Shown one piece after another: positions 40,929 through 62,841 of a stretch of DNA of 64,000 nucleotides; the stretch's first letter is position 1, and the number at the start of each line of letters is the position of its first letter. The position numbers and the translations under genes are program-made. This stretch comes from Muribaculaceae bacterium (lineage in GTDB: Bacteria > Bacteroidota > Bacteroidia > Bacteroidales > Muribaculaceae), in contig JAMPHP010000002.1 in the NCBI GenBank assembly GCA_023663365.1, positions 152,677 to 216,676 on the forward strand, given 5' to 3'. The notes beneath the pieces were generated by a model that saw only the letters and a program-made list of their open reading frames with translations, searched no databases and was not told the origin of the DNA.

Positions 40929-40976
40929 GCAAGCCAGGCAGCCAACCATCGGGCTCCGTCGGCCGTTATATCCAAT

Positions 40977-41531: not shown

Positions 41532-41589
41532 CGAGACTGCGCCACGGCAAGCCGCAGTAGCTGTCGCACACTTTGATACATCCACGCTA

Positions 41590-41597
41590 TATTTTTG
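41590..41597 (+). promoter_or_regulatory. -7 element before the DprA-like gene
   Basis: TATTTTTG matches TAnnTTTG and would give a leader of about 18-20 nt. A TTTG at 41572 is closer than usual for a -33 box. Confidence 0.45.
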
Positions 41598-41622
41598 TGG
41601 CGAAATCAACCCTAAAAATCAA

Positions 41623-42270: not shown

Positions 42271-42298
42271 TACTGCCACTATCGGTAAGCAATACCTA

Positions 42299-42703
42299 CT
42301 ATCTCCCGGCCAAAAGTTGGGAGATATTTGTTAAAACATCCGATGGAGGCCATCCTTCACTAAACATCAAGTCAGCAGCCATCCCCATCGCGAATACTTC
42401 AACATTGCATTTCTTCTCTATTTCATCAACGAGTTCTTGTAGAGCCGCAAATTCTATCATGTAACCACTCAGAATGAACTCTGCATGAGTTTGACAGATG
42501 AAGTGCGTCTTGTCCTGCTTATTAGCTAATACAACAAGAGTCTGGAAGAGAAAGAAATCCGGGTCTGCAATGGGATTGAAGCCTTTTTCCAGGCCAGCAT
42601 AATCGAACTGCCGTTTGGCTTTGTCGGTTATAAAGTCAAGAACCCTTGCAACTTCGGGGTCGCTATCTTTCGGGATAATTTCGTAGTATCGTTCTTTTTC
42701 CAT
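42299..42703 (-). CDS. Unknown small protein (134 aa)
   Basis: Not recognised. Mostly helical with a hydrophobic middle (FFLFQTLVVLANKQ). No catalytic motif stands out. It begins 10 nt after the PD-(D/E)XK gene and is probably its operon partner. Confidence 0.6.
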   Translation of the reverse strand: MEKERYYEIIPKDSDPEVARVLDFITDKAKRQFDYAGLEKGFNPIADPDFFLFQTLVVLANKQDKTHFICQTHAEFILSGYMIEFAALQELVDEIEKKCNVEVFAMGMAADLMFSEGWPPSDVLTNISQLLAGR

Positions 42704-42713
42704 AAACCGAGGA

Positions 42714-44779: not shown

Positions 44780-45889
44780 CTACTTCAGGTTTAGAAAACA
44801 CGCTCGACCGGTCTCTGTAATCCAGGGCTTTCGCATTTCGTAGGAGCCTTCGCTGTCGAATACCCATACTCTTTTTGTTCGGTCACCATTTTTTACTCGC
44901 GGTCGAGGAGCACGGCCATCCGTGAAAATAATGAGTCCATCATAATCACGATGGTCAGCAACGAAATCGAACACGCATTGAAAGTCGGTGCCTCCACGAC
45001 CGTTTATCTCGAAGCGATGGTTTTTCCTCACCTTTTCCAATGATAGCACCGCCCCTTGAATTTGCGTGTCGAACTGAATTACATCCATTGTCTCAATGCC
45101 ATACTTGAAGAATCTGACGATGATGGAGAAGAAATTGCATAGCATGTCGTTTGATACAGAGCCGCTGACATCGACCGCAATCAACAGGCGAGTTGAAAAA
45201 TCGTGTTTGCTGCCCATGTGTTCAAAGCCGCTACGACGGTTGGGGCGCATTCGCGTCAGGGACCGTACTGACGACAAAACAGATGCCCGAAAACCGCACA
45301 ACACCTTTCGATAGTCAATCCTCGCCTGTGTCGATGCAATTATAGTATCGGTGAGGTTGCCGGGAACTGTTCCCCAGTCCTTAATCTTCTCTATTGTCTT
45401 GTTAATCTCAATCTGCTTACATTCATCTTCTTCCCATAGTTCGGCGGACTCAGCCCGGACTTCGGCCTCTTTGCCATCATCCGACGTCGGTAGGTTTTCA
45501 AGGTACCATTCGTAGTGCTTATCATCGGGAAGCTCAAACACTTCAGCCGTAGCCATCGACGGTTGATATTGGAAAGTATAGTTGGATGTCAACACAATAT
45601 CACTTGCAATGCGCATCTTCTCGCGGGGGCAATCAAGAGGCGTGCGTTGGTAAGGATGCTTCAGGAAAAGCCTGATCATCTCAATCTTGATTGTTTCCTC
45701 AAACACTTCGTCGGGCATCGCCGAAATAATTTCCGGATTGTACTCCATACGTCCTTGTCCAACACGCACGGCACATCTCAACTTTGGATTAGAAACATGT
45801 GCATGGCTGCAAAACATGGCAAAGAATGCCGGCTCCGACAGGAACCAACTTTCAGCCAGATACTTGAATCGGTCGTTTGCTGTAGCCAT
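44780..45889 (-). CDS. VWA-domain protein with degenerate DUF2201-type N-terminus
   Basis: A 369-residue protein. The C-terminal von Willebrand A-like domain has a full MIDAS metal site: D240-x-S242-x-S244 (DVSGS), T301-D302 (GGTDFQ) and D324 (FTDG). The N-terminal part resembles the metallopeptidase-like region of DUF2201 proteins, but the zinc-binding HExxH is not intact (IEMIRLFLKHPYQR). VWA proteins of this type work with a MoxR ATPase, whose gene lies 1 nt upstream. ATG 45889 is chosen since the longer frame overlaps that gene. Confidence 0.87.
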   Translation of the reverse strand: MATANDRFKYLAESWFLSEPAFFAMFCSHAHVSNPKLRCAVRVGQGRMEYNPEIISAMPDEVFEETIKIEMIRLFLKHPYQRTPLDCPREKMRIASDIVLTSNYTFQYQPSMATAEVFELPDDKHYEWYLENLPTSDDGKEAEVRAESAELWEEDECKQIEINKTIEKIKDWGTVPGNLTDTIIASTQARIDYRKVLCGFRASVLSSVRSLTRMRPNRRSGFEHMGSKHDFSTRLLIAVDVSGSVSNDMLCNFFSIIVRFFKYGIETMDVIQFDTQIQGAVLSLEKVRKNHRFEINGRGGTDFQCVFDFVADHRDYDGLIIFTDGRAPRPRVKNGDRTKRVWVFDSEGSYEMRKPWITETGRACFLNLK

Positions 45890-45890
45890 A

Positions 45891-46958
45891 CTATAAACCG
45901 TTAATAAACTCTTGAATCTTTCTGTAAAGGTCGGGGAGGTCTGTGAGAACGAATAGCGCGGTCTCGGGATAGTCGCTGCCGGCATAGTCGGAAATCCAGT
46001 GAGCCAAAGCCTCGCTTCGTCCGGTCGCCAACAGCATATCTACGTATGCTTCCAGCGACCGGGCAACTGTAGCCCGATTTTCCGGCTTCAGTCCTTCTGC
46101 TTCGATGAAAGCAAAAATTGAATCGTTCAGTAGAGAGATGGTATGAAGCGGCAGTGCTTTCACTGTATTGATATGTTTTTCATATTCAAGCATCAGGTCT
46201 TTTCCTGTGATGGCGCGTGCAGAGGCTGCGAAGTCGAAGAATCTTCCGGCGGACTTGGCACCGATAATGCCACCAATCAGCTTCTTATGAAAGCCTGTAA
46301 GCTGTGGCTCATCCTTGATAACATCCGACACTCGCTTCCAGCCACGGCGGTCGGCACTCTTTTCGAGTCCGGCATCAAGATCGGGGAGTTCCTCGTCGAG
46401 GTAAGCAGGATGACCACTAATGAAATTTATCACGCGCTCATCAAGTCCGGCTTGTCGTGCCCATACGAGCCATTCGCTCGGTTCCGGGCGGAAATTGTAG
46501 ATATTGAAGCGAGAGACCAATGCGGGGTCAAGATCGGTAAGCTGATACTCCTCGCCATCGTTCACCGCCGAGATTATGCGGCTCCCTTCGGGCAAGGTTC
46601 GACCAGCCAATTTGCGGTTGAGGGCCAAGTCCATGATGGTCTGAAGCACTTCGGGACGCGCACGGTTCAATTCGTCAAGGAACAATACGATTGGCTCACC
46701 ATTGACCGGAAACCAATAGGGGGGCATAAAATCGGTTGTTCCTGTCTCAGGATTGAGTCGCGGCAATCCTATAAGGTCGCCGGGGTCGCTCATCTGGCCA
46801 AGGAAAAGCGAAATCACCTTCATTCCTTTGCGGGTGAAAAAACGAGTGAGAATTTCCGACTTTCCAATGCCATGTTTACCTTTAAGCATCACATTGTGTG
46901 AAGCCGGAGTCGCCTCCAGCAAGCTCTCAAGTTCTTTGATATTTAGCGTGATAGCCAT
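45891..46958 (-). CDS. MoxR-type AAA+ ATPase
   Basis: A 355-residue AAA ATPase. Walker A GKHGIGKS (27-34), Walker B VLFLDE (91-96), a sensor 1 asparagine in ISAVND and arginine-finger-like SRFN. The GQMSDPGDLIGLPRL insert is typical of MoxR/RavA-like proteins. Members remodel or activate partner complexes together with a VWA adaptor, here encoded next. It follows the metallopeptidase gene by 4 nt. Confidence 0.9.
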   Translation of the reverse strand: MAITLNIKELESLLEATPASHNVMLKGKHGIGKSEILTRFFTRKGMKVISLFLGQMSDPGDLIGLPRLNPETGTTDFMPPYWFPVNGEPIVLFLDELNRARPEVLQTIMDLALNRKLAGRTLPEGSRIISAVNDGEEYQLTDLDPALVSRFNIYNFRPEPSEWLVWARQAGLDERVINFISGHPAYLDEELPDLDAGLEKSADRRGWKRVSDVIKDEPQLTGFHKKLIGGIIGAKSAGRFFDFAASARAITGKDLMLEYEKHINTVKALPLHTISLLNDSIFAFIEAEGLKPENRATVARSLEAYVDMLLATGRSEALAHWISDYAGSDYPETALFVLTDLPDLYRKIQEFINGL

Positions 46959-46962
46959 AGCT

Positions 46963-47598
46963 TTATTTGAATCTTACAATTTGTTTTCTATCGGGTACAT
47001 CTTGAGTTTCTGTTCGCAAGGTACGACGGCGTTCATCTTCTGTCAGGAAATGCCGAAGGCAAATATTGCGAGCCTCAACCTCTCCGGCCAAACGAAGATA
47101 ACGACGCATCCCGAGGGCCTTAGGGCTTCCGCCCTTTGCAAACCCCTCTATCTCTTGAATCAAATGCTGTATTTCGTGCAAAAGAACGCCCTCAATCTGA
47201 TAACTGAACTCGGCTTTAGGCGTGCCCATCGAAATTACTATACCATTGGTATCCGGGTTATAATAACCTGCCAAGCCGGCTTTATGTGAGTACATAGCAT
47301 ATAATGTAAGAGTCTCAAATTCCGGATATGCGGTCAGTATCTTAGCATCGCGCAATATGAACCGAATATTGATGGGTTCGCCATAGCGTGGTTTCACATA
47401 ATCTTCAATGGCTGAAGTCGCGAGAAAAGGGTCGGCTATCTCGTAGCGCCATTTGCCATCAATGCCACCTTCCCAGCCGGTCCGGATCTTGACAACGATT
47501 GGATCTTGCCCTTCCTTAATCATTTGCTCCGCTTGTTGAAGACGTGTCTCATTCCCTGCATCAAGCCGTTTGGCTCCGACAATACCTATATAGCTCAT
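46963..47598 (-). CDS. Stand-alone polyvalent-type metallopeptidase
   Basis: A 211-residue protein. The N-terminal TGWEGGIDGKWRYEI region and the zincin core (H141-E-I-Q-H145, then GFAKGGSP and LAGEVEARN with E173/E175) match the metallopeptidase module normally found inside giant polyvalent proteins of phages and conjugative elements. Here it is a separate gene whose start overlaps the helicase stop by 4 nt, so the two were probably parts of one polyvalent-type system. It may process or protect against host proteins, by inference. Confidence 0.78.
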   Translation of the reverse strand: MSYIGIVGAKRLDAGNETRLQQAEQMIKEGQDPIVVKIRTGWEGGIDGKWRYEIADPFLATSAIEDYVKPRYGEPINIRFILRDAKILTAYPEFETLTLYAMYSHKAGLAGYYNPDTNGIVISMGTPKAEFSYQIEGVLLHEIQHLIQEIEGFAKGGSPKALGMRRYLRLAGEVEARNICLRHFLTEDERRRTLRTETQDVPDRKQIVRFK

Positions 47599-50500
47599 AC
47601 GTCAATAATTATATCATTTTTGCCACTGAGGTAGTTTTCAAGGCTCTTGCGTATGTTACCCAGGCGAGGATGGCATAGACTATTGTCAAGAAACTTTTGC
47701 ACTTCCTCTGCCGGGGGAGCGAGAAATAGCATCTCTCTTTTGTATCGTTCGACCGTTTTGCCTATTGCCGACAATTGCTCTTTTGCAATTTCTGCCTTGA
47801 GCCTGCGGATGACGTCCTCGTCGAATTTTACTGTCTGCTCCTTACCTGCATTCATCAAAATCCGATGAAGGTCGTGGCGGACTATACTTATCAAGTTGTT
47901 CCAGCCATCGCGATGCATATAGGCAGGGGTCTTCCGCGTTTGAGGCCATTCAAAATAGAGAGCCCGAATTTGTCCGGCCAAGGAGCGCTCGGTGAATGAC
48001 CTCCCTTCATAGTTAAGAGTCCGAAGGCAAAGTTGCACCGGAAGCGTATACTCATCAACATATTGCACATCCTCATCCACGCAGCTTACCGGGGCCGAAA
48101 TACGTATTTCTATCTCTTTTCTGACGGGAGGCATAATCTTAGACGCTTGCCAATCAAGCTTAGGCCAATGCTTGGACTCATTCACTTTGCGGCTCTTTGC
48201 ATGACCGTTCATTTCTCCTACTGTGAGATATTCGCGCGGAATAAGAATAACGGCATTCAGCGAGGCCAACAAAGTCATCACCTCAACAAACACCGCGCTA
48301 CCTGAAGCTATTCGGTCGGTCGCATAATGTTTGAGCGGATTCTTGGCCGAGGCGTTGTTCTTGTTGCGCATCGATGTGACGGCAGTCGCTTTGAAATGCC
48401 CGCGGATGGAGTCAAAGCGGGTATCGCTTTCAAATTTCTTTGAATCCTTGTCCGTGACGGAGATACAAAATGTCAAGCCTGTGCCCTGCAAGTTGCGCAT
48501 TGGTATTATGCAGAATCCAACACCTATACCTGAAATCTGGTAAACATGGTTGGCAGCGTTGGCATATTTCAAACCGTCGACCAAAGGCAAGGCGACATTA
48601 GATGCCAGTTTCTCAACATTTTCGCCCGACATCGGCAGCAGCAATCCCTGCTCCGTGTGGACAACGCCATCCTTATCAGGGGCAAGAGAGAAGGTGATAA
48701 AGCGTGGTTTGACCGATGCCACCAGCGGATTGGAATATGCGCCCAGAATGTTGCCGGTGATGATTTTACGATCAAGGATACGATTGTTGTACTTGGCTAT
48801 CTCTCGATCCCATTCAAGGGGGTTGAAATTCCACTGTGGGGAGTCAAGCAACTGCATCAATCGGGCATAATCGTTTTGCGAACCTTTATCGACAAGGTTA
48901 AGAACGAGTTCTTTATGCCCGGCAGATAGGGCGAAAACAAACTGCACCTTACCCGGCTGGAAACGCCGAGCTTCATTCTTATCGAAACGCACCTCTTTCA
49001 AGACTGCGATGACGCGGTTGATTTTCTCGTCAAGCGGAAGAATGTCTAGTATATTACCGAACCCTTGACCTATAGCTGCTTTTGAAAGAGCCTCCATCAG
49101 TCGTTTACGCTGCTCTGACTTAACTTTGAGTTCTTTTTTCTCGCGGTCGTATAAGTCGGCAAAATCTGTGGAATATGACAGCAACTTACGCTTCAGAAAT
49201 TCTTGCTTGGGAAAAACTCTCAAATCAGAGTCAATCGACCCAAGCCAAAATTCGGCAGGGTGCTGAGCAAGCAGCATAAATTGAATGGCTTGCTCCTCCT
49301 TAGGGATATATCTACACAGAGCCTTAAGAGTTAAAGCCCAGAGAGTTTCTTTCCGTGCCTTTATCTTATCACGAATCTTTTTATTTTCGCGGCGATAATA
49401 GGCGCTGATCTCATCTTTAAGTTGCCCCGACTCCGAAAGGTGCGCACCATATTGAGCCTTCGACTTTGCGATGGCCTGAACCAACGAAGCGGCATCGTAA
49501 GGGAAGGTGCGGTGTCGGCAGCGGAATGTCGAAAGCATAGACACACTTCCTAATGCGCTTTCATCAACCGACTTGGTGAAAAGCTCCTCTTTGACAAACT
49601 CCGCCTCGAAGTCGCGGTAATCACGCGCCAAATCCCATTGGTTGATGCGTCGCAACTCCTGCTCAAGATTTTGATAGGCAGAGAATATTTCGTCGATTAT
49701 ATCTTGTTGAGCTGTGACACTGAGCATTGCCACGCGGGCCAACAATTGACTTGCAGTAGCAGCCCCTTTTAAGCCCAGCACGAATGCGAGTTCCGTATTG
49801 TTGGAAAGGAACTCTGTGGTGACCTGGTTTCCGTAGCGGTTGCTAATGTCAATGAAATCGGCTTGACGCTTGTCCTGATCTTGATTTGCCGCAGTGTTGG
49901 CACTCAAAGAGCGCAATTTCGCACGAAGCATCATATTGAGCCGCTTCTCTGATGGAATAGCGGTGATGATATATTCGTAGAGAGGTGGTAGCTCCTCCAC
50001 TTGACCCGTGCGGTTTATGCGGCCTCGCTTCTGAAGGTCGATATTCACATCAAGATCGTTCTGAACAATCAGCATCTTTCGCTGACGCACTTCGCTGCGC
50101 TGAACCTCGGCGGTTTCCACGGCATGGGCGCTGGCTCCGATTGCACCGCAGGCATTGATGAGAATTACATCCAGTTTGTTGTTTTGGAAGTCATTGTAGA
50201 TGTGATTGGAGTGGCGTTTCTTGCGGGGAACAACTATTGCGTTGACATACTCATCGTCACCTTCTGGCGACAGATATTCCACTTGGCGAGCGCGACCGGT
50301 GCATTCCTCGAAACGGATATTTCGTGTCACTCCTGACTTGTCGGTAAATTCTTCCTGAGTTATCAGCTGTCGGATTACATCAATCGGCGATAAGGGCAGA
50401 TGAAATATATCTTCCAAGATTCCATCCCTGATTTGATCAGAATAGGTCCTGACGTCATCTAACTTGGAGAAAATTTCGTGATTTGTCGGGATGCCATCCA

Positions 50501-51989
50501 AATCAAGGTCAAAGACCGTCATTCCGACGACCTTGGGGTTAGAGAGAGTTTTGTCCAATAGTCTTAACAGCATGGTCGAAAAATCACCTGTGCGGCACTC
50601 TTTTGTTATCGGGTCGATGCTGTCGCGCAATACACACTCCAAAGTGTCGCTCATACCGATGACAACGCTCCGACCGGCTCTAACTTCCCGCACCGCCGCT
50701 TCAGCTACATCACGCGCTTTCAACGAGAGCAAAAGCACTTTATTGACATAGAAGAGTTGCGCTCTTGTCGGGTATGGACGGAAAACATCTGCCTCAAGCA
50801 GTTTGGTCATGACCATAAGCTCTTTTATCATGTCGGAGAGCTTGACCATTTCACGAAACCAGTACATTACCTTGTCGAAAAGCTCGGCATGTTCTACCAA
50901 TTTGTCGTCAAGATATGTGTAGGTAGGCTCGGGAAGACTTTCAGTGGAATGCTCCCGCCGAATCATTTGCCCCTCGTTGGCGAGTTTTGATGCTACATAC
51001 TCCTGCATAGGCACGCCTCCGTTGGCAAAGGCCAGCTTCAGCGTGTCGTTTGTCGCCAGCGAGCTGAGCATTGTCTGGCGCATGAAGGTAATCAGGCATT
51101 CCGGGCGTTTGGCAAATGTTGCAGACAGAAACACACATTGAGTCTTGGGGCATTGCTCCAATATTGAATTGATACCCTGCGTGATAACCGAGATTTTGCC
51201 AGCGGTAACACTACTGCTTTTGTGAGCTTCATCGAAAATGAATAGCACACGATGTTTCTCACAAAGAGAGGTCAGAAAATCAAGGCGAGTCATATCTCGC
51301 TTGGCATCCTTCAGCTGCGAATATGTCAGCATCAGGTATTCAAAGCTCGATGTTTCTATATCGCCTCTGCGATACATCAAGTCCAGTTCTGCCTTCTTGG
51401 GCGATTTATAGATCTCTTCGTAGTGCTGTTGGTATAGACCGGCTTCAGCTTCGCCGTCATCGTCGTCATCTTCATTAGGTGACCAAATCTCATCAGTCAA
51501 GGGTTCGTCCTCGCCCTCAATAATTTTGTCGAAGTCCACTACCGACACTTTCTGATTGAGAATGAGCGGCCGGGCATTCATTATACCAAGAGCCTTGCAG
51601 TCGCGATACATATCGCTGAATAGCGTGTATCGGTCGGTAAGGAATATCGGCAGATACCCGGCCAACATTCCGTAACGTATCATTGCGGCAGCCTGTCGGC
51701 CTTTACCAATGCCGGTCTGGTCACCGATAATAACCGACTGACTGCGGGCTTCTATATTGTAGATAGCTAACGCAACACCTTCTACTTGCTCTTGAGCTAA
51801 TGCCACAGCAAGTTCTTCGGGGGATAAATTGAGTCGATTGGCAACATAGCCTGAAACGTCGCCGTGAAGTGCCTCTTTCATTTTCAAAAGGGCATGGGAC
51901 GTTTCTTCCGAAAGTTGTTCCGGAATTGTGGCCCCTAATGACAGGATTTCCCTCTCAGGTATATAATTTTTTTTATCAGCGTACTTCAT
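47595..51989 (-). CDS. Strawberry-notch-type superfamily 2 helicase (1464 aa)
   Basis: A giant helicase-like protein. The N-terminal motor has GDQTGIGKGRQ (about 89-99) and FIFDEAHKSS (DEAH about 253-256) with an acidic insert between; the C-terminal helicase half has GASAHAVETAEVQRSEVRQR and QKRGRINRTGQ. These match the SBNO methylase/helicase group common in phages and conjugative elements. About 700 more residues have no recognised domain. ATG 51989 is chosen; an upstream ATG at 52046 would overlap the preceding gene. No methylase domain is seen. Confidence 0.87.
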   Translation of the reverse strand: MKYADKKNYIPEREILSLGATIPEQLSEETSHALLKMKEALHGDVSGYVANRLNLSPEELAVALAQEQVEGVALAIYNIEARSQSVIIGDQTGIGKGRQAAAMIRYGMLAGYLPIFLTDRYTLFSDMYRDCKALGIMNARPLILNQKVSVVDFDKIIEGEDEPLTDEIWSPNEDDDDDGEAEAGLYQQHYEEIYKSPKKAELDLMYRRGDIETSSFEYLMLTYSQLKDAKRDMTRLDFLTSLCEKHRVLFIFDEAHKSSSVTAGKISVITQGINSILEQCPKTQCVFLSATFAKRPECLITFMRQTMLSSLATNDTLKLAFANGGVPMQEYVASKLANEGQMIRREHSTESLPEPTYTYLDDKLVEHAELFDKVMYWFREMVKLSDMIKELMVMTKLLEADVFRPYPTRAQLFYVNKVLLLSLKARDVAEAAVREVRAGRSVVIGMSDTLECVLRDSIDPITKECRTGDFSTMLLRLLDKTLSNPKVVGMTVFDLDLDGIPTNHEIFSKLDDVRTYSDQIRDGILEDIFHLPLSPIDVIRQLITQEEFTDKSGVTRNIRFEECTGRARQVEYLSPEGDDEYVNAIVVPRKKRHSNHIYNDFQNNKLDVILINACGAIGASAHAVETAEVQRSEVRQRKMLIVQNDLDVNIDLQKRGRINRTGQVEELPPLYEYIITAIPSEKRLNMMLRAKLRSLSANTAANQDQDKRQADFIDISNRYGNQVTTEFLSNNTELAFVLGLKGAATASQLLARVAMLSVTAQQDIIDEIFSAYQNLEQELRRINQWDLARDYRDFEAEFVKEELFTKSVDESALGSVSMLSTFRCRHRTFPYDAASLVQAIAKSKAQYGAHLSESGQLKDEISAYYRRENKKIRDKIKARKETLWALTLKALCRYIPKEEQAIQFMLLAQHPAEFWLGSIDSDLRVFPKQEFLKRKLLSYSTDFADLYDREKKELKVKSEQRKRLMEALSKAAIGQGFGNILDILPLDEKINRVIAVLKEVRFDKNEARRFQPGKVQFVFALSAGHKELVLNLVDKGSQNDYARLMQLLDSPQWNFNPLEWDREIAKYNNRILDRKIITGNILGAYSNPLVASVKPRFITFSLAPDKDGVVHTEQGLLLPMSGENVEKLASNVALPLVDGLKYANAANHVYQISGIGVGFCIIPMRNLQGTGLTFCISVTDKDSKKFESDTRFDSIRGHFKATAVTSMRNKNNASAKNPLKHYATDRIASGSAVFVEVMTLLASLNAVILIPREYLTVGEMNGHAKSRKVNESKHWPKLDWQASKIMPPVRKEIEIRISAPVSCVDEDVQYVDEYTLPVQLCLRTLNYEGRSFTERSLAGQIRALYFEWPQTRKTPAYMHRDGWNNLISIVRHDLHRILMNAGKEQTVKFDEDVIRRLKAEIAKEQLSAIGKTVERYKREMLFLAPPAEEVQKFLDNSLCHPRLGNIRKSLENYLSGKNDIIIDV

Positions 51990-52009
51990 AATCGACTGCA
52001 AGGATAGAG

Positions 52010-52429
52010 TCAGTGTGTTTCCGAATCCGATACAGGTGGGGACCATTTGTCTTCATCTTCATCGTATACGGATTCGCCGGTGAAGATGTTGGTGTGCTCG
52101 TTGGCGCAACATTCATTTTGCCACCATACCTCAGGACTCATTGTCAGATGGCCGTCTTTGCCCATGATGACAGTGTAATCTTCGTAGTCGGTATAATCAA
52201 TCTGTATATATAGGCCGACGTATTCAGAACCCGCGCTTACTTCGGTGCCGAAGAGAGTCATTAAGTCTTCCCAGTCGTGGAGGAAATCGTCAAAAGAGGT
52301 GTAGCCTTTCACAATCTCCATGAAACCGGCATGACGCTGGCGCATTTTCGAGAGGCCTTTCTCTCGCATTTCATAAAACATCTGCGCCAATTTTCGGCGC
52401 TTCTCGGGATCAATATTTCTCTTTACCAT
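52010..52429 (-). CDS. Unknown acidic small protein (139 aa)
   Basis: Not recognised. A basic helical N-terminus is followed by an acidic, aromatic C-terminal half (GLYIQIDYTDYEDYTVIMGK). It ends 20 nt before the helicase start. Charge and length recall antirestriction-type DNA mimics, but there is no direct evidence. Confidence 0.6.
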   Translation of the reverse strand: MVKRNIDPEKRRKLAQMFYEMREKGLSKMRQRHAGFMEIVKGYTSFDDFLHDWEDLMTLFGTEVSAGSEYVGLYIQIDYTDYEDYTVIMGKDGHLTMSPEVWWQNECCANEHTNIFTGESVYDEDEDKWSPPVSDSETH

Positions 52430-53609: not shown

Positions 53610-55517
53610 CTAAATATCCATTTTCAGGTTTTCAATGATGAATAATTGACGTTCTCGGGTGTTTTTGCCACGATAGAAAGAGAGCGTTTTGGATAAATCT
53701 TCATTTGGGGCTAAAGGTAGCCGCATCAAGCGCATGTCTGGGCCGATGAAGTCGGCAAACTCATGGGGAGAAATTTCGCCAAGACCTTTGAATCGGGTTA
53801 TTTCGGCCCGGTCTCCAAAACGATTGATTGCGGCAATACGTTCTTCATCGGTATAGCAATACACCGAATTATCGTTATTTGGGGATTTTGAGCGAGTTCC
53901 GTGCCGTTTGCTGTCACGCACTCTGAACAGCGGTGTTTCGAGCACATAGAGATTGCCGTTGATAAGTAGGTCGGGGTAATATTGCAGAAAGAACGTTACG
54001 AGCAGCAGTCGGATATGCATCCCGTCGACATCCGCATCCGTTGCAATTATCACCTTATTATATCGTAATCCTTCGATGCCTTTTTCTATTCCAAGCGCAT
54101 TGCGAAGGAGACTCAATTCCGTATTGGCAGCTACTTTGTCGTATGTTGCTGAATAGGTGTTAAGAGTCTTGCCCTTCAACTTAAAGACTGCCTGAGAGTT
54201 GACATCGCGTACTTTTTCAATAGAGCCTCCTGCACTGTCACCCTCGGTAATAAAAATAGATGAGGCCATTCGCTCGTCCTCTGTTTGACGCGAATTGTTG
54301 AGGTGCCAACGACAGTCGCTAAGTTTTGGATTGTAGATTGCAACTCGCCTAGAGGATGATTTGGTTGATTGGCTGATGGCTTTTAGATCTTTCCTCATCC
54401 GGGCGCTATCTTTTGCCCGTTTGAGTATAGTTGCAAGAGTGTCGGTATGGCGATGGAGATAATTGTCGAGTTCTACCGACAAAAAATCCTGAATGAATTT
54501 ATACACAGTCACACCTCCGGGACCAACTTCCTTACTGTTCAGCTTTACCTTTGTCTGGGATTGAAATTGTGGGTTTTCTAAGCGGATTGATATGACAGCA
54601 ATCATCCCATTTCTGATGTCGGCAAGGTCAATATCTTTTTTTATGACATCTTTAATCGTGCGTGCCACAATCTCCCGAAAAGCAATCTGATGTGTGCCGC
54701 CAAACTTTGTAAATTGGCCATTGGCAAACGAAAAGAAACGCTCCTCATTTTGATTGGTATGCATAAAGCAAATCTCAATATCCGGGCCTGTCAAATATAT
54801 GTCTTCATATAATCCTCCCGAAGGAACTGCCTCAGCGATAAAATCACGAAGACCATTTTTCGAGAATATTGTCGCGTCATTATATACAACAGTAAGTCCT
54901 TGATTTACATAAGTGGTATTCCGAAGCATCAAACGGATTATATCATCATCGATTCTGTAGTCTTTGAAGATTGTCTCATCTGGTTTGAATCGAACAAATG
55001 TACCGTTAGGCTCATCCGTTGACTCTTCGGGGCAGTCTTCAATCAATACGGCTCGCTCGAACACACTGCGCTTCTTACGTCCATTACGGACGGAATAAAC
55101 TTCAAAATGTTCAGACAAAGCATTGACGGCCTTTATGCCGACACCATTAAGTCCGCCCGATTTGACATAGGCTCCCGATCCGTAGTTGGCACCGGTATTG
55201 ATTTGAGAAACCACGCGAGTTACGCAGTTTAGCGGTATGCCACGACCAAAGTCTCTTATGGATATTGCTCCATCTGAGACTTCAACTATCAGCTTTTTAC
55301 CATACCCCATTATAAACTCATTGACCGAGTTGTCGATAACTTCTTTGAATAGTACATAAAGCGCATCTTCATAGTCTGAGCCATCTCCGGGAGTGCCCAC
55401 CCACATTCCGGGGCGCTGTCGAATGTGTTCGCTCCAACTAAGGGTGCGAATATTTTCCTCAGTATAAGATGCTTCATCAGCCTTGGCGGTAGTTATATCG
55501 GTATCTTTTGCCATCAT
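53610..55517 (-). CDS. parE: Type IIA topoisomerase subunit B (ParE type)
   Basis: A 635-residue GyrB/ParE-like subunit. GHKL ATPase motifs KEVIDNSVNEF, RDFGRGIPL and GGLNGVGIKAVNALS; transducer domain; TOPRIM with FITEGDSAGGS and TDADVDGMHIR; C-terminal FKGLGEISPHEFADF. Length and start (ENIRTLSWSEHIRQRPGMWV) fit Bacteroidetes ParE better than GyrB. No ParC/GyrA partner gene is next to it. Whether it is the chromosomal ParE or an element-borne paralogue cannot be settled here; its setting among accessory genes favours the latter. Confidence 0.9.
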   Translation of the reverse strand: MMAKDTDITTAKADEASYTEENIRTLSWSEHIRQRPGMWVGTPGDGSDYEDALYVLFKEVIDNSVNEFIMGYGKKLIVEVSDGAISIRDFGRGIPLNCVTRVVSQINTGANYGSGAYVKSGGLNGVGIKAVNALSEHFEVYSVRNGRKKRSVFERAVLIEDCPEESTDEPNGTFVRFKPDETIFKDYRIDDDIIRLMLRNTTYVNQGLTVVYNDATIFSKNGLRDFIAEAVPSGGLYEDIYLTGPDIEICFMHTNQNEERFFSFANGQFTKFGGTHQIAFREIVARTIKDVIKKDIDLADIRNGMIAVISIRLENPQFQSQTKVKLNSKEVGPGGVTVYKFIQDFLSVELDNYLHRHTDTLATILKRAKDSARMRKDLKAISQSTKSSSRRVAIYNPKLSDCRWHLNNSRQTEDERMASSIFITEGDSAGGSIEKVRDVNSQAVFKLKGKTLNTYSATYDKVAANTELSLLRNALGIEKGIEGLRYNKVIIATDADVDGMHIRLLLVTFFLQYYPDLLINGNLYVLETPLFRVRDSKRHGTRSKSPNNDNSVYCYTDEERIAAINRFGDRAEITRFKGLGEISPHEFADFIGPDMRLMRLPLAPNEDLSKTLSFYRGKNTRERQLFIIENLKMDI

Positions 55518-56931: not shown

Positions 56932-57489
56932 CTACTTCAGGATTTTCAGTGCTATGGCAGCGCAGGCTTCGGCATCGGCAAGAGCGTCGTGGTGATTTTC
57001 GAGGTGGAAGCCGCAGGCCTCGGCCACTATGTGGAGCTGATGGCTGGGGAGGTCGAGGTGGCGCCGCGAGGCTGCGAGTGTGCAGTAGAACTCATAATCA
57101 GGATACTCCATGCCATATTCAGCAAACGCCGCTTTGAGGCAGCTCTCGTCGAAGGGCTTGTTATGAGCCACCAGTGGAAGACCCTTGATTCTTTCTTGGA
57201 CTTGTGCCCACACCTCAGGGAAAGTTGGCGCACTTTCAGTATCGGCTTGTGTAAGGCCGTGAATTTCAGTTGTCCAATAAGAGTAATAGTTAGGTGTGGG
57301 TTTGATTAGACTGTAAAATCGGTCTACTATCTCACCGTCACGCACTATAATCAATCCAACGCTGCACACGCTGCACCGGCGGCCGTTGGCTGTTTCAAAA
57401 TCTATCGCTACAAAATTGCCGTTTAAGTGAGGGCAATCTGAGCTTGCTCGGAGATTGTCGAGCGGCAGGTAATTATCTAACTCTTGCAT
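56932..57489 (-). CDS. DEDDh 3'-5' exonuclease (DnaQ-like)
   Basis: A 185-residue exonuclease domain. The acidic residues are in FVAIDFETANG (DxE), HNKPFDESCL (D) and NHHDALADAEA (H and D), the DEDDh pattern of DnaQ/epsilon proteins. It is not fused to a BRCT or polymerase domain. It follows the WYL regulator by 5 nt, so the pair is coupled. It may act on DNA or RNA ends in the system. Confidence 0.87.
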   Translation of the reverse strand: MQELDNYLPLDNLRASSDCPHLNGNFVAIDFETANGRRCSVCSVGLIIVRDGEIVDRFYSLIKPTPNYYSYWTTEIHGLTQADTESAPTFPEVWAQVQERIKGLPLVAHNKPFDESCLKAAFAEYGMEYPDYEFYCTLAASRRHLDLPSHQLHIVAEACGFHLENHHDALADAEACAAIALKILK

Positions 57490-57494
57490 CTTTA

Positions 57495-58409
57495 TTACTT
57501 TTTGTTGTAAACATTGTATAATTCCTCAACCCAGCCTTTCATCTGGTCCACCACTTCTTTGGGTGAAAGCACCTCTATCCACGAGCCTCCATGGAGCATT
57601 TCCATGAAAAACTCCTCAGTGGGAGCGACTTTCACTTCAAACTCAGCATAGTCGCCCTCATCCACAAGCAAGCGTTGCGAATGGTGGATTGGCAGTGACA
57701 TTATATAATATTTATGAGGATTATAGACCCTGAATTTTATTGGCTCTTCAAACGGCTCAGTCCAACGGGATACTCCAATATAGTCATGAAAATATTCCGC
57801 AGCGTTGAAGTCGGCGGGGTAGGCGAACCCTTCTTTAAGCTCATTGGCCTCCTCAATACGGTCAAGACCATACGTATTACGCTTCCGCTCTCCATAAGGA
57901 TAACTGTCACCTACAACATACCACCTGTTGTTATACAATTTTACGCACAGCGGCTCGACTGCAAAGGTGGAGCTATATATCTTGCCGAAGCCTCGGTAGG
58001 TAATCTGTACTTTGTGATTATGCTTCAATGCAGAAATAATCGTGGCAAGATTGGCCCGACCGGAAGGAATCTCTTCAAGCAGAATCTTATCCTGAATATC
58101 AAGGTTGCCCAAAAGAGTCGTACCCATCGACACCGAGTCAAGGAGCCATTTTTTCACTTTATTACCCTCAATTCTTTCAGGATCGAGAATCGAATAGCGG
58201 TAAGGCGGCTTCTGCTCATTCACAATGACGACCCCAAATTGTTCTTGAATGCCATCTTTCCAGCGATTGAAAGTAGCCCGGTCCAGGGCTTTGTCACTAT
58301 AATTATGTTCTGACAGCCATCTGTCGGATATATCTCGAAGCGTGATTCCTGATTCACCGCTTCGATGAATGACGTCAAGCAGCCATATATATTTCTGTGT
58401 GAGGGTCAT
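57495..58409 (-). CDS. WYL-domain transcriptional regulator
   Basis: A 304-residue protein: winged-helix N-terminus (about 1-90), WYL domain about 125-215 (HKVQITYRGFGKIYSSTFAV, NNRWYVVGD, YGLDRIEEA) and a C-terminal WCX region. WYL proteins sense nucleic acid ligands and control defence or DNA-repair genes. It heads a minus-strand operon with the exonuclease and is divergent from a second winged-helix gene. Confidence 0.9.
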   Translation of the reverse strand: MTLTQKYIWLLDVIHRSGESGITLRDISDRWLSEHNYSDKALDRATFNRWKDGIQEQFGVVIVNEQKPPYRYSILDPERIEGNKVKKWLLDSVSMGTTLLGNLDIQDKILLEEIPSGRANLATIISALKHNHKVQITYRGFGKIYSSTFAVEPLCVKLYNNRWYVVGDSYPYGERKRNTYGLDRIEEANELKEGFAYPADFNAAEYFHDYIGVSRWTEPFEEPIKFRVYNPHKYYIMSLPIHHSQRLLVDEGDYAEFEVKVAPTEEFFMEMLHGGSWIEVLSPKEVVDQMKGWVEELYNVYNKK

Positions 58410-58553: not shown

Positions 58554-59357
58554 ATGGCAGCAAATCAGTTAAAGCAGTCGCTTTGGTTCATGAGGGAGAT
58601 TCTGCAGTCGGGTGCCCGTGGCATCTCGCGCGAAGAACTTTGCTCCAAGTGGGCTGTATCCTCTATGAACGATTATCCCGGGGAGGAAATATCCGAGCGC
58701 ACATTTCATCGCCAGCGCCGATTATTGGAGGATGCCTTCCAAGTGACTATTGAATGTAGCAAAGACGGCAACAAGCGTTACCGCTTGTCGGCCGATGACC
58801 TCACTCCGGGCAGGCCATCATTGCTTGACCTTGTATTGCTGCGGGCAAAAGAAGATGTTGATACTACCTCTTCCCTGAAACAGATAGTTTTGTTATTGAC
58901 ATCTGGAAACAAACTGATGCCCGAGGATGAGGCTGCGCTTAACTATTTGACAGCTCAGCTGCATAGAATCCCATACGACTATGGCCAACGCTTGATATCC
59001 TCCGTGGAGCGTGGTGTAATCAGTCATGCCGACCAAGCTGAGTGGGACATCGATTATAAATACTATATTGCATTGTGGAACGAGGCAACTTTCCGGCGCA
59101 CGCGCCAGTGGCTCTCTGTAGGCTTGTGTCCCGATGGAATTTACTTCTATATCGTCAGTGATGACCAGGATTTTTATTTAAGAGAGCAAAGAGCAGCACT
59201 GATTGGAGCCGGTGAGGGTGTCCGCTATCACCGTGGCTACTGGTGGCATGAAATGAAAGACCCGAGCCTTTTCTGTATGCCGTATGCCGCAGTCCCCGAC
59301 TATGGCGAAATTATTGGCCGTTGTGAGTATATTCTTTCTCTAATGGAAAAAGTATAA
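58554..59357 (+). CDS. WYL-like winged-helix protein (267 aa)
   Basis: The N-terminus (MAANQLKQSLWFMREILQSG, then ISERTFHRQRRLLEDAFQV) matches the winged helix of WYL-type regulators and parallels the layout of the divergent gene. The C-terminal half has an expected length for a sensor domain but no clean WYL motif; it is helical with many aromatic residues. Probably a diverged paralogue that acts with or against the other regulator, by inference. Confidence 0.75.
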   Translation: MAANQLKQSLWFMREILQSGARGISREELCSKWAVSSMNDYPGEEISERTFHRQRRLLEDAFQVTIECSKDGNKRYRLSADDLTPGRPSLLDLVLLRAKEDVDTTSSLKQIVLLLTSGNKLMPEDEAALNYLTAQLHRIPYDYGQRLISSVERGVISHADQAEWDIDYKYYIALWNEATFRRTRQWLSVGLCPDGIYFYIVSDDQDFYLREQRAALIGAGEGVRYHRGYWWHEMKDPSLFCMPYAAVPDYGEIIGRCEYILSLMEKV

Positions 59358-59394
59358 AAATATGCCGCTGACAGATATTGGCAGGCGCACAGGC

Positions 59395-59402
59395 TAAATT
59401 TG
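59395..59402 (+). promoter_or_regulatory. -7 element before the FtsZ-like gene
   Basis: TAAATTTG fits TAnnTTTG. The leader to ATG 59508 would be about 100 nt. The preceding gene could also read through. Confidence 0.4.
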
Positions 59403-59507
59403 CAATGGAACGGCAAATTTTAATCTCCATTAGAATATTAACCAACTCAAAAAATCGACTATACACTAATCTACAAGGAAAAAATCCAAATACAGAGACA
59501 GACAAGT

Positions 59508-60059
59508 ATGAAGAAAACAATGATAATAGGCGTAGGCGGAGCAGGATGCAATATGGCCAACACCTTCCGCCGCGAGGCAAAATCCGATTCAATCAAAAAC
59601 GCTATCTATGTGTTTGCCGACCACCGGCGACCCGAGATTGATTATTTCGAGTGGGCCGACGATTTCACAGCCTTTCTGAATTTATACAACATTAACCTCT
59701 ACAACGACTTGCCGGACGGTTTTCTCAAAGATGTGGAAAAAGTTTACGTACTTGCCGGACTGGGTGGTCAGACCGGAACCGCATGGACTCCTGTTATCGC
59801 TCGGTTCGCGAAATTCAGTGATGTAAAATATGTATCGGCTATTGTGACCACTCCTTTTATCTTTGAGGGAGAACGCCACTTGGCTCATGCGCTTGACGGG
59901 CTTACAAAGATCAAGGACCAAAATCTTGATTTGGTGATAGCTCTCAACAACGAAAAGCTCGCAGAGCAATATGCAAATATCAATTTTTCCAACGCATTCG
60001 ACTATGCCGATAAAGCTGTCCTTGCAGCCATTGAGGAAAATCTCAGATTGAAAAGATAG
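59508..60059 (+). CDS. FtsZ-like GTP-binding domain protein, truncated form (183 aa)
   Basis: It matches only the N-terminal nucleotide-binding domain of FtsZ: GVGGAGCNM (8-16), the tubulin signature loop GLGGQTGTA (84-92, GGGTGTG-like), VTTPFIFEGE (113-122), NNEKL (147-151) and the AFDYADKAVLAAIEE helix. The C-terminal half of FtsZ, with the T7 synergy loop that completes GTP hydrolysis between subunits, is absent although the frame is intact. It should bind GTP and could contact one face of FtsZ. It is coupled to a small membrane protein. Confidence 0.85.
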   Translation: MKKTMIIGVGGAGCNMANTFRREAKSDSIKNAIYVFADHRRPEIDYFEWADDFTAFLNLYNINLYNDLPDGFLKDVEKVYVLAGLGGQTGTAWTPVIARFAKFSDVKYVSAIVTTPFIFEGERHLAHALDGLTKIKDQNLDLVIALNNEKLAEQYANINFSNAFDYADKAVLAAIEENLRLKR

Positions 60060-60063
60060 TTGT

Positions 60064-60306
60064 ATGACAAAAGAACAGCTTTCCATAAAGATTACCAAGC
60101 TGAGTATAGTCGTAGGGATTTGTGGAGGTGTCGCACAGGCACTCGGCTCCCCCGAACATCCAACTAAATGGCTTGCTGTTGGCTTGTTGGCAGGCTTGGC
60201 AATCAGCTTGCACGAATGGCGAAAAGTCGTTGAAATACTAATCGCAGAGTATAACCGGCTGAAAAAGCTGGAATCAGATAAAAATAAAGGATGTAGCGAA
60301 AAATGA
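60064..60306 (+). CDS. Small membrane protein (80 aa)
   Basis: Two hydrophobic stretches (about 10-27 and 34-48), then a charged C-terminal helix (EWRKVVEILIAEYNRLKKLE). Not recognised as a family. It starts 4 nt after the FtsZ-like gene and may tether that protein to the membrane. Confidence 0.6.
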   Translation: MTKEQLSIKITKLSIVVGICGGVAQALGSPEHPTKWLAVGLLAGLAISLHEWRKVVEILIAEYNRLKKLESDKNKGCSEK

Positions 60307-60320
60307 CGCACCCTCCGTAC

Positions 60321-60328
60321 TAACTTTG
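60321..60328 (+). promoter_or_regulatory. -7 element of the tRNA-like gene
   Basis: TAACTTTG lies 16 nt before the predicted 5' end of the tRNA-like sequence at 60344. No good -33 match. Confidence 0.5.
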
Positions 60329-60343
60329 CAGCAAACTCAATCA

Positions 60344-60420
60344 GGCCCGGTGGCGGAAACGGATAGACGCGCTTTATATTAGATGGAAAGTACACTGCTG
60401 GATCGTACCCAGCCCGGGCT
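60344..60420 (+). tRNA. Aberrant tRNA-like gene (leucine-type body)
   Basis: A 77-nt cloverleaf. Acceptor stem 60344-60350 / 60414-60420 (7 bp, first pair G-U). D-arm TGGCGG...AGACGCG as in bacterial tRNA-Leu. Anticodon stem CTTT/AAAG around an expanded loop holding TTAGA (UAG anticodon if T60379 is U33). A 6-nt variable loop, too short for leucine. T-arm GCTGG/CCAGC with loop ATCGTAC, in which the usual T54 and A58 are exchanged. No CCA is encoded. It could be a functional odd tRNA, a decoy or a decaying copy. Confidence 0.55.
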
Positions 60421-60434
60421 GCAAATAATTTAAT

Positions 60435-60449
60435 TTGAAAAATTTTCAA
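60435..60449. promoter_or_regulatory. Palindrome before the FtsK-DnaA gene
   Basis: TTGAAAA (60435-60441) and TTTTCAA (60443-60449) flank one base, 7 nt before ATG 60457. Either an operator for the fusion gene or a short hairpin after the tRNA-like gene. Confidence 0.4.
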
Positions 60450-60456
60450 CAGCAAT

Positions 60457-62841
60457 ATGACCAATCTTCCCGAAGATGCCAACGAAAAAGTAAAGACTGT
60501 GCTTACGGCCATAAAGAACGTGGGCATTGACTGCTCGTTGTGCAATATCTCAGTTGGACCAACCTATACTTTGATAGAGCTGAATCCGACAGCAGTAAAC
60601 CAAATTTCAAAAGTAAGGAAACGATCAGAGGATATTTATTTGTCCTTAGCTTGTCTCGGAGTCCGTATCATTGCACCGGTTCCCGGCAAAGGAACAATAG
60701 GAATAGAGATCCCCAACGATAAACCTCAAATAATCCGCCTCGGCACACTGCTGAATTCGCCTGAATTTACGGAAAGTAAAGCCGTGCTGCCTATTGCCGT
60801 CGGTATGGATGTAGAGGGAAAATGCGAGGTGGCCGACTTGACTAAAATGCCTCATCTTTTAATCGGAGGCGCAAGCAGCCAAGGGAAGTCGGTATTCCTT
60901 CACTCTCTAATCGTGTCTTTGCTTGCAGCCAAAGAGCCCGATGAATTGCAGTTCTTGCTCATCGACCCCAAAATGGTAGAATACTATCAATATCGCACAC
61001 TCGCAAATTCATATCTACTGAAAGTTGAGGGTATTGCAGAGCCGGTAATTTCTAATTCCGGGGATACAAAAGTCGCTCTAAATGCGTTGTGCGCAGAGAT
61101 GGAGCGAAGATATTCTCTTCTGAGAAATGCCGGTGTACGAACAATAGCAGATTACAATGATAAGGAAAGCGATAAGCTGCCATATATCGTTGTGGTAATA
61201 GATGAGTTTGCCGAACTCATTATGACCTTCGGCAAAGATTTTGAAACTCCAATCGCACGACTTGCACAAAAAGCTCGTGCCGCAGGGATTCACGTTGTTC
61301 TCGCTACCCAGCGTCCGTCAAAGGATGTAATTACAGGCATAATAAAAGCGAATTATCCCGCGCGCATTGCATTTAGGGTATCTCAGAGAGTTGATAGCAA
61401 AACTATTCTTGATTATGAGGGTGCAAACAACCTCCTTGGATGTGGCGACATGCTGTTCTCTAACAATGGCCGTGTGTCACGCTTGCAAGGAGCATTCATT
61501 GATAATGCCGAGTTAGATAAAATCCTCAACAGCCTGTCTAATCAAAATGATGGACAGAATCAAAAAATTGAGATAAAGGGAATTGATATGAACGAAAGCG
61601 ACACTGAACCAAAACAGAAAGACTCCCTCTTCGACAAAGCGGCAAAATTCTTCGCCTCGCAAGAATTTGCTTCAATAACTATGCTTCAACGAAAATTCGA
61701 GATTGGCTTTAAACGTGCCTGCCAGCTTATGGATGAGCTCGAAGCCGCCGGAATTGTAGGCCCGGCACAGGGTGCAAAACCACGGGAAATCCTCATAAAC
61801 TCCGGCCGCAGGAGCAAATCACAGTATGATATGCCTAAGAAAAAAGAGAATGTAGATTTCAAGCCATCGCTCAAGCGCTCGCAAACCTTCGACACCATCT
61901 GCACCGAAGCAGAAAACAGCAAGGAGGTTTCGATTGCTCGGTCTTTTGCGCAGGCAGGAGCCACGTCGGGCGTGTTGGTGGTCTTTGGCAATTCGGGAGT
62001 GGGGAAAACCCATATCGCCAACGCTATCGGCAACAAAATCAAAGCAGAGAACCCAAGTGCACGTGTTGCCTTCGTTGCCGCGCATCAGTTCTCAGATCAG
62101 CTTACCGAGGCTTCCAAAAGGTCGCTAAGCCTCTTCACGGCTTTCTATCGGTCCTTGGATATGCTTATAGTGGATGATATTCAAGTGCTGTCGTCCAAGC
62201 CTTTCAATCAAGAAATACTGCTGCAAATCTTTGATGGGCTTTTGCAGAAAAACGCCAAAATTGTAACTGTCTGCGACAGACACCCATCCGCTTTGGCCGA
62301 CTTTGACCCAAAGCTCATCTCTCGGCTCAATAGCGGTATCGCAATCGAACTGCCGCAAGCCGGCAGGAGCCTCCGCTTCCGCATCATTGAGCAGCAGGAT
62401 AAACGCCTCAAGGGCTACCTTTCGTCGGAAATACTACAGCGCATCGCCGACACAGATACCTCTATCTTTGAAATGCTTGGACGGCACATCACCCTATTAG
62501 CCTATAAAGAAGCATCGAAAGGGGAAATTAACAATTCGACCGAGGCAAAAATACCGGGCGAACGGGTAGCTGAACTTGCAGGCGGTGCCCGGCGACTCAT
62601 CGAGCGCTGGAAAGATTTTATCCTTGAAGCGAAATCAGTATACCCCGCCGCCGACACTTGGCTACGGATGCTGCACATCAAATCGTTCGACGATGGTGAG
62701 CTTGTCGTGGCGGCTCCATCGCAAAACTTCGTTGACCAATTTGAAGAACGGTTTATTGCGTCGCTTTCGCCTATCCTGAAAGCCTTCTGGGGCGAGAATA
62801 TGCGCCTGAGCTATGTTTTACCCACCAACGACAAGCAGTGA
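60457..62841 (+). CDS. FtsK translocase fused to a DnaA-type initiator
   Basis: A 794-residue fusion without membrane helices. Residues 1-130 form the FtsK alpha region (VRIIAPVPGKGTIGIEIPND); 131-360 the RecA-like motor with Walker A GGASSQGKS (137-145), Walker B IVVVIDE (244-250) and LATQRPSKDVITGIIKANYP; about 389-447 the gamma winged helix (SITMLQRKFEIGFKRACQLM). A basic linker leads to a DnaA-like AAA+ domain (about 475-690) with Walker A GNSGVGKT (511-518), Walker B MLIVDD (569-574), sensor 1 TVCD and SRLNSG. Residues about 715-790 resemble DnaA_N (TWLRMLHIKSFDDGELVVAA). DnaA domain IV, the DnaA-box binder, is missing. The frame is continuous, without a sign of sequencing error. Confidence 0.93.
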   Translation: MTNLPEDANEKVKTVLTAIKNVGIDCSLCNISVGPTYTLIELNPTAVNQISKVRKRSEDIYLSLACLGVRIIAPVPGKGTIGIEIPNDKPQIIRLGTLLNSPEFTESKAVLPIAVGMDVEGKCEVADLTKMPHLLIGGASSQGKSVFLHSLIVSLLAAKEPDELQFLLIDPKMVEYYQYRTLANSYLLKVEGIAEPVISNSGDTKVALNALCAEMERRYSLLRNAGVRTIADYNDKESDKLPYIVVVIDEFAELIMTFGKDFETPIARLAQKARAAGIHVVLATQRPSKDVITGIIKANYPARIAFRVSQRVDSKTILDYEGANNLLGCGDMLFSNNGRVSRLQGAFIDNAELDKILNSLSNQNDGQNQKIEIKGIDMNESDTEPKQKDSLFDKAAKFFASQEFASITMLQRKFEIGFKRACQLMDELEAAGIVGPAQGAKPREILINSGRRSKSQYDMPKKKENVDFKPSLKRSQTFDTICTEAENSKEVSIARSFAQAGATSGVLVVFGNSGVGKTHIANAIGNKIKAENPSARVAFVAAHQFSDQLTEASKRSLSLFTAFYRSLDMLIVDDIQVLSSKPFNQEILLQIFDGLLQKNAKIVTVCDRHPSALADFDPKLISRLNSGIAIELPQAGRSLRFRIIEQQDKRLKGYLSSEILQRIADTDTSIFEMLGRHITLLAYKEASKGEINNSTEAKIPGERVAELAGGARRLIERWKDFILEAKSVYPAADTWLRMLHIKSFDDGELVVAAPSQNFVDQFEERFIASLSPILKAFWGENMRLSYVLPTNDKQ

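Follow-up and report, generated by a model that had tools for sequence, protein, structure and literature searches.

The gene at positions 60457-62841 (+ strand) of a 64,000-nucleotide stretch of Muribaculaceae DNA (the window, C22:152677-216676 of a 361,022-base contig) encodes a 794-residue protein in which a soluble FtsK is fused to a permuted DnaA. The reading that we favor, tentatively and at somewhat less than an even chance, is that of a captured DNA pump that would dock onto host DnaA complexes and stall or remodel initiation during conflict with invaders. The protein appears to combine known domain families in a domain order that we did not find in the literature searched. No FtsK-DnaA or FtsK-FtsZ fusion surfaced there, subscription journals lying mostly outside the coverage, and an earlier reading made from the letters alone (the sequence-only reading) had likewise known of no described family with this order. 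More widely, soluble FtsKs with swapped or adjoining cell-cycle modules seem to be found in islands of this bacterial family.

The two halves of the fusion

The single frame is open over 794 codons with no internal stop, as had been claimed, and its product comprises, from the N to the C terminus, FtsK alpha-beta-gamma (residues 1-448), a DnaA AAA+ module (ca. 472-695) and DnaA domain I (ca. 715-790). Pfam matched FtsK_alpha at 6-87 (4.5e-16), FtsK_SpoIIIE at 97-288 (1.1e-51) and FtsK_gamma at 387-447 (1.4e-23), i.e., the complete soluble FtsK of the sequence-only reading, and the alignments agree with the motif positions given there (Walker A 137-145 and 511-518, Walker B 244-250 and 569-574). 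The second half, described at that time as a DnaA-type AAA+ module, was matched by Bac_DnaA at 472-630 (4.5e-34, versus 2.9e-9 for IstB) and, among the NCBIfam models, by DnaA (TIGR00362, 2.1e-54, versus 1.6e-14 for IstB, 2e-14 for Hda and 2.4e-5 for DnaC); the Orc/Cdc6 model TIGR02928 reached only 0.0038. Since both libraries favor DnaA by many orders of magnitude, DnaC and IstB could be discarded and, judging by these profiles, the second half is DnaA. The nearest solved sequences are those of FtsK (2iut and kin, with 2ve8 and 2j5o for gamma) and DnaA (8btg and 2z4r). An assembly join of host ftsK and dnaA is very unlikely, given the low identity of the two halves to these genes (48% and 34%, respectively), the permuted domain I, and a motor that shares 75% identity (287 residues) with an island FtsK of another genome, G137. 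Nor is the C-terminal tail an FtsZ piece like those of the sister islands described below: with the FtsZ profile it scored -4.3 bits and ranked last of 1015 rows.

The FtsK half (60457-61800, + strand) starts directly in the alpha domain, with a top 19-residue hydropathy of 1.5 and no N-terminal membrane domain. It retains 150 of the 224 positions conserved in 12 chromosomal FtsKs (12 of 20 FtsK loci, after 8 minus-strand loci were dropped). In the motor, Walker A (G143, K144 and S145), Walker B (D249 and E250) and most of the sensor stretch are kept, and two spacer positions of the P-loop are altered. Gamma is near canonical, reading RKFEIGFKR where E. coli has RQFRIGYNR, so that the Asn is replaced by K419; the E. 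coli stretch contacts XerD and KOPS DNA (available part of PMC5052618). The likeness to chromosomal FtsK/SpoIIIE thus extends to the order of alpha, motor and gamma, the identity to the host copy and the Walker and sensor positions, whereas the missing membrane segment, the changed P-loop spacers and gamma Asn, and some 340 extra DnaA-derived residues set the fusion apart. Comparison with the G137 relative, for which 861 open bases of that gene were used (287 codons), gave a dN of 0.155, a dS of 0.907 and a dN/dS of ca. 0.17, which indicates that the FtsK motor is under purifying selection.

The AAA+ module (61870-62541, + strand) agrees with 30 of 44 near-invariant DnaA columns and deviates in the other 14. 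Walker A and B are kept, and the residues for ATP binding and head-to-tail contact, K178, D235, D236, D269 and the arginine finger R285 of E. coli DnaA, are found as K517, D573, D574, D607 and R623 of the fusion. The sensor-2 arginine R334 is lost (F671), the box VII arginine R281 has become K619, and R245 is a Phe, the host DnaA having Gly at this place. Domain I (62599-62826, + strand) sits behind the AAA+ module, the unusual end at which a DnaA_N-like segment had been reported. A profile of domain I from chromosomal DnaAs gave 40.3 bits on residues 700-794 (best of 1000 shuffles, 4.9) and the N terminus of the host chromosomal DnaA matches residues 732-789; DnaA_N was absent among the 25 of 30 Pfam matches listed for the fusion. 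Here W6 and W25 of E. coli are kept (the dimerization Trp is W718), E21 is A731, with Gln in the host DnaA itself, and F46 of the DnaB/DiaA patch is N757, an alignment-dependent reading since a Phe sits one place after the Asn. Domain IV, noted before as missing, scored -1.6 bits, inside the range of 300 shuffles, versus 104.8 for the host DnaA. The protein is therefore homologous to the DnaA initiator in two domains and differs from it by the position of domain I and by the loss of domain IV, of both arginines and of the Phe46 position.

What these residues do elsewhere is described in the available parts of several papers. E. coli DnaA requires R334 to hydrolyze ATP but not to form initiation complexes (PMC5742627), whereas R281 is required for stable oligomers and helicase loading, and E21 and F46 for DnaB binding (for both, PMC5742627, PMC5448010 and PMC3193534); the Caulobacter mutant equivalent to R334 over-initiates and its division is blocked (PMC3193534). 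The residue pattern of the fusion suggests an ATP-locked, contact-capable DnaA that would be unable to read DnaA boxes and may not load helicase. The DnaA half looks less like an initiator than like a docking module.

Regarding the origin of the halves, the DNA similarity to the G137 island FtsK (76% identity over 1084 aligned positions) stops at position 61799, the codon after the end of Pfam gamma. The G137 relative itself (L158:18058-19451) lacks alpha, has its frame interrupted between motor and gamma, and carries a tail that was not detected as DnaA. The third-position GC content (GC3) is 0.433 in the first 450 codons of the fusion and 0.581 in the remaining ones, for comparison with 0.68-0.83 in five host genes and 0.31-0.68 in the tested island genes. 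In the tree, the DnaA half forms a very long branch, nearest to Bacteroidales DnaA but unsure in its placement. The host DnaA is placed near named sequences of Muribaculaceae and Porphyromonadaceae, from which the order Bacteroidales can be deduced for the genome. An alignment combining the AAA+ and domain I fragments proved to be misaligned and was left unused.

A search for the same fusion in other Bacteroidales, as suggested in the sequence-only reading, gave no second case at the thresholds used. The C-terminal half recovered its own genome only, both among 398 genomes of the family (1/398, E ≤ 1e-40) and among 384 of the order (1/384, E ≤ 1e-42), at thresholds chosen to exclude ordinary DnaA and which would consequently miss a fusion whose DnaA half is more diverged; among the rows listed, at least six genomes are common to both draws. 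Among phage and plasmid records, none matched as much as 80% of the fusion at a single locus. The viral contigs held no relative of the fusion, of the neighboring mini-FtsZ and 80-residue protein or of the helicase; they did contain two ParE loci and one motor match for the FtsK-FtsZ protein of G093 (see below). A phrog_50 match spans gamma and AAA+ and could hold a relevant relative. Several candidates dissolved on inspection. Of 80 genome-contig loci, some seeming to cover residues 467-786, 79 are a DnaA-sized frame matching the host DnaA, and the eight viewed in full show the usual sequence of DnaA domains. The match in phage record H41, apparently covering gamma and AAA+, is an ordinary DnaA in an unannotated fecal record, and the plasmid matches H21 and H22 are ftsK amid chromosome-type genes in records labeled as plasmids.

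Extra FtsK copies and FtsZ-family proteins

Two FtsK matches at E ≤ 1e-60, a count that omits weaker copies, were present in four of 99 family genomes: G000, which is the genome of the window and whose two matches are the fusion and the chromosomal FtsK, and G002, G015 and G093, in which 7.0-8.0 kb were inspected around the extra copy. In all four (4/4), an FtsZ-family protein lies at no more than 2 kb from the extra FtsK or is fused to it. The mini-FtsZ of the window ends 0.4 kb before the fusion. In G015, there are a WYL gene, a DEDD gene and a soluble FtsK, with an FtsZ-like protein 1.9 kb further, and in G002 the FtsZ-like protein is 0.35 kb from a motor-only FtsK, followed by DEDD and WYL genes. 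G093 has a 671-residue FtsK in which gamma and a linker precede an FtsZ C-domain as the next domain. This protein resembles that of the window in being a soluble FtsK with a host cell-cycle module next after gamma, and it differs in having the FtsZ C-domain where the window protein has DnaA; two island proteins are thus built in this way. A profile made from 19 FtsZ proteins scored 71.0 bits in G002, 49.9 in G102 (another related island), 43.7 in G093 and 26.9 in G015, the best of 1200 shuffles reaching 6.8; by Pfam alone, the FtsZ domains of these four genomes are invisible at E ≤ 1. When 14 sets of island stretches were scanned with profiles (frames of at least 60 codons, E ≤ 1e-3), FtsZ-family proteins appeared in seven, FtsK in five, both in four, and DnaA in the window only, numbers that are not frequencies since the sets were gathered with different baits.

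The island FtsK of G015 is 84% identical to the chromosomal FtsK of the same genome and groups with it in the tree (98/97), which indicates that it is a recent host capture. G000 and the motor of G137 are separated from the chromosomal FtsKs by a branch with 100/99 support, a placement that carries long-branch warnings. As several island FtsKs form long branches, only the G015 join was relied on. The label "island" needs three changes on this tree, two of them forced by starred branches. Together, the FtsK-DnaA and FtsK-FtsZ proteins hint at a family that imitates host cell-cycle machinery.

Proposed docking on host DnaA and competing explanations

DnaA and FtsZ are NTP-dependent filament formers of the host. 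The DnaA module and the FtsZ C-domain both derive from such proteins and both lack pieces needed for their normal tasks, and for this reason we read the module behind gamma as a docking piece that would bring the DNA pump to a host machine. The fusion would then belong to a modular conflict system that recruits its parts from the cell-cycle genes of the host. An ATP-bound DnaA AAA+ module, with its arginine finger kept and its hydrolysis switch lost, together with domain I and its dimerization Trp, could enter the DnaA filaments or initiation complexes of the host, and in this way the pump would be brought to DNA under initiation, where it may block, strip or remodel the complex. At the same time, the mini-FtsZ might act on division, and the net effect would be that host replication and division are held or reprogrammed upon sensing of an invader. 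How docking would lead to an effect (block, strip or restart) is inferred. Since both DnaA and the FtsZ C-domain are found behind gamma, the mini-FtsZ, ParE and WYL genes of the neighborhood can be read as part of the same theme of host cell-cycle mimicry. Besides the domain assignments and the residue pattern, docking is favored by the purifying selection on the motor, the FtsZ-family protein near or fused to the extra FtsK in the four two-FtsK genomes, the FtsZ C-domain behind gamma in G093 and the recent capture in G015. A prophage protein, YfdR, is known to bind DnaA, with Phe46 being important, and overexpression of its gene cluster inhibits initiation (available part of PMC4776307).

Several points weigh against docking. 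It needs a DnaA-DnaA contact across 34% identity. A second FtsK-DnaA fusion, from which selection on the DnaA half could be gauged, did not turn up, and the branch of this half is very long. The FtsZ match of G015 is weak, and G137 has FtsK copies but showed no FtsZ-like gene over the 21,217 bases covered of its 31,217-base contig. The 7,866 bases inspected around the G093 fusion contained no relative of the WYL or DEDD genes, so that the association with these genes is not general.

If docking is true, it would mean that bacteria or their islands have turned a chromosome motor, an initiator and a division protein into weapons or checkpoints. The action of conflict islands on the host cell cycle itself would become testable, and natural separation-of-function pieces of DnaA and FtsZ would be at hand for studying filament capping and remodeling. 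A broader version, which we consider somewhat unlikely, is that these are undescribed cell-cycle mimics, i.e., soluble FtsK pumps whose post-gamma piece is swapped between host filament proteins (the FtsZ C-domain, or DnaA III and I) and which would dock on the division ring or the initiation complex. With the mini-FtsZ, the spare ParE and the tRNA-like RNA, they would serve as a programmable means of halting the host cell cycle or taking it over in phage or plasmid conflict.

The rival with the most support, in itself unlikely, is a capture defense of the HerA/FtsK type, in which the DnaA module would find replicating invader DNA in the role of Orc/Cdc6 and the pump would feed this DNA to nucleases such as the nearby DEDD exonuclease or phosphoesterase. 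In such conflict loci, an FtsK captured from cellular FtsK, with its alpha domain, stands beside Orc/Cdc6 AAA+ and winged helix-turn-helix (wHTH) proteins (available parts of PMC10853773 and PMC12839542); here, a single chain unites alpha, the gamma wHTH and an initiator AAA+. The island also has PDDEXK_4/PDC-S26, DEDD, TOTE primase-helicase, methyltransferase and phosphoesterase genes, and in G015 and G002 the island FtsK has DEDD and WYL genes at its flanks. However, the fusion is a single polypeptide with a bacterial DnaA rather than an Orc/Cdc6-family AAA+ (no such partner was seen among the other island genes, which were examined by Pfam only), and the DNA-binding domain of this DnaA is lost. 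No nuclease is fused to it or found in its row of genes: Pfam detected no nuclease domain among the + strand genes of 58554-62841, and the DEDD exonuclease (56932-57489) is on the opposite strand. In related islands the partners are pieces of FtsZ, for which a nuclease-based capture offers no obvious role. The word DnaA is absent from the main texts of PMC10853773 and PMC12839542. Another known comparison is provided by the conflict systems centered on MoxR-vWA or GTPases, which take up cell-division modules, including FtsK and rarely FtsZ (available part of PMC7159879, in which the word DnaA does not occur). MoxR and vWA genes are also present in this island (44780-46958 by Pfam), but the FtsK domains of those systems are predicted to be inactive, whereas the Walker motifs of the fusion are intact.

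It is quite unlikely that the proteins form a segregation or positioning module of a mobile element, with FtsK moving DNA, the FtsZ-like protein as a cytomotive filament and the DnaA half coupling both to replication. The company of an FtsZ-family protein in the four two-FtsK genomes would suit it, and the neighboring 80-residue protein may be a membrane piece. Nevertheless, each copy of FtsZ is either split or diverged, the island lies inside a 361 kb contig, and no integrase or relaxase family was detected at E ≤ 0.01 in a Pfam scan of 26 island genes (25 plus the fusion). The proposal that the fusion is the initiator or helicase loader of an element, in which gamma finds the site, the AAA+ module opens the DNA and domain I recruits helicase, comes from the sequence-only reading and is improbable. 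The Walker motifs, the arginine finger and domain I are kept, gamma is near canonical, and the island also has a TOTE-type primase-helicase and ParE, but sensor 2, the box VII Arg, the Phe46 position and domain IV are lost and the domain order is reversed. Movement to a site followed by opening or loading is less supported given the changes at F671, K619, N757, A731 and K419, and placing the protein as an initiator is doubtful. What stands of that proposal is the part given to gamma, which appears to be the sole complete DNA-reading domain left in the fusion. The other option offered at that time, interference with the host origin, fits better, and the neighborhood (mini-FtsZ, second ParE, WYL and defense-like genes) points the same way. 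Finally, a non-functional chimera, joined by chance from mobile fragments in a decaying island, is the least probable explanation and would be a surprise. The fusion is a singleton with a long-branched DnaA half, the halves differ in GC3 and the frame of the G137 relative is interrupted; against this stand the 794 open codons, the intact ATP-binding residues of both modules, the dN/dS of the motor and the existence of a parallel FtsK-FtsZ fusion.

The island and its relatives

GC content falls from ca. 0.60 to 0.41-0.49 at about 42 kb of the window, continues at 0.36-0.48 for 14 kb beyond the window end, and is then 0.49-0.58, near a tRNA-Leu at L106:14622. No direct repeat of at least 12 bases that could mark the element borders was found between 40501-43500 and 77501-80500. 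The low-GC stretch includes a PDDEXK_4 (PDC-S26) gene; the vWA, MoxR AAA+, LPD23 and Strawberry-notch-type helicase genes (44780-52046, - strand); a second ParE-type topoisomerase subunit (53610-55517, - strand), 55% identical to the other genome copy, on contig C21, and with no ParC-type gene in the Pfam scans of its neighbors; the DEDD-type exonuclease (- strand, Pfam RNase_T); and a divergent WYL/WCX regulator (57495-58409, - strand). Besides the mini-FtsZ and the fusion, the stretch also has genes for a phosphoesterase, a TOTE primase-helicase, a methyltransferase, a helicase-methylase and an HATPase protein. The TOTE primase-helicase, a type II methyltransferase, a Res-Eco57I protein and the HATPase protein stand in a row at the right end of the island (L106:3507-13945), likely as a defense cluster.

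The fusion closes a + strand row with gaps of 150, 4, 37 and 34 bases. The first gene (58554-59357) had no Pfam family above the cutoff, but the first 86 residues of its product match the one at the place of the WYL gene of G102 (27%, 5.6e-8), so it may be a WYL-type regulator in its N terminus only. The mini-FtsZ (59508-60059, 183 residues) consists of the GTPase part only (Pfam Tubulin; FtsZ profile 99.4 bits, N-terminal part), no other FtsZ piece having been found in the window. The 80-residue protein (60064-60306) has two weakly hydrophobic stretches by hydropathy, with relatives of 81% identity in G102 and 73% in G137. The tRNA-like gene (60344-60422, + strand) was called tRNA-Leu by ARAGORN and had no Rfam match at E ≤ 1.

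Relatives of the helicase were found in seven other genomes out of 398 (E ≤ 1e-60), six being nearly full length, and those of the 80-residue protein in five others (E ≤ 1e-4), two strong and three weak. In G102, the tRNA-like gene comes after the mini-FtsZ (79%) and the 80-residue protein (80-81%), and the protein encoded next has an FtsZ C-domain. In G137, the 80-residue protein and the tRNA-like gene precede a gamma-less FtsK-type motor, another frame and the FtsK relative. Since the two genomes differ after the tRNA-like gene, the place behind it is variable. This gene thus occurs behind the 80-residue protein in three genomes (the window, L158:15536-15613 in G137 and L174:9441-9520 in G102). 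Its body is almost invariant and the anticodon arm differs, with the stem pairing kept to the eye and an aatt anticodon called in two of the three; no second copy was found in its own genome. The FtsZ of G102 is split in two (L174:8602-9941), the 80-residue and tRNA-like genes separating its GTPase piece from its C-domain piece, and the comparison of its GTPase piece with that of the window gave a dN of 0.109 and a dS of 0.769.

A frame at the left edge of the island (window 41332-42270) has a 79% match at L174:76-720, next to the G102 island genes, which hints at a shared insertion site for both islands. G102 also has an integrase-like frame, named by eye, at C9:103209-104606. In G137 (C6:17251-21654), three TGA codons were reported inside the helicase match, yet a 1456-codon frame is open there. 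The islands L176 and L177 (G252 and G217, respectively) have, as named by eye, RtcB-like proteins beside WYL-type regulators, and in G252 a release-factor-like gene as well.

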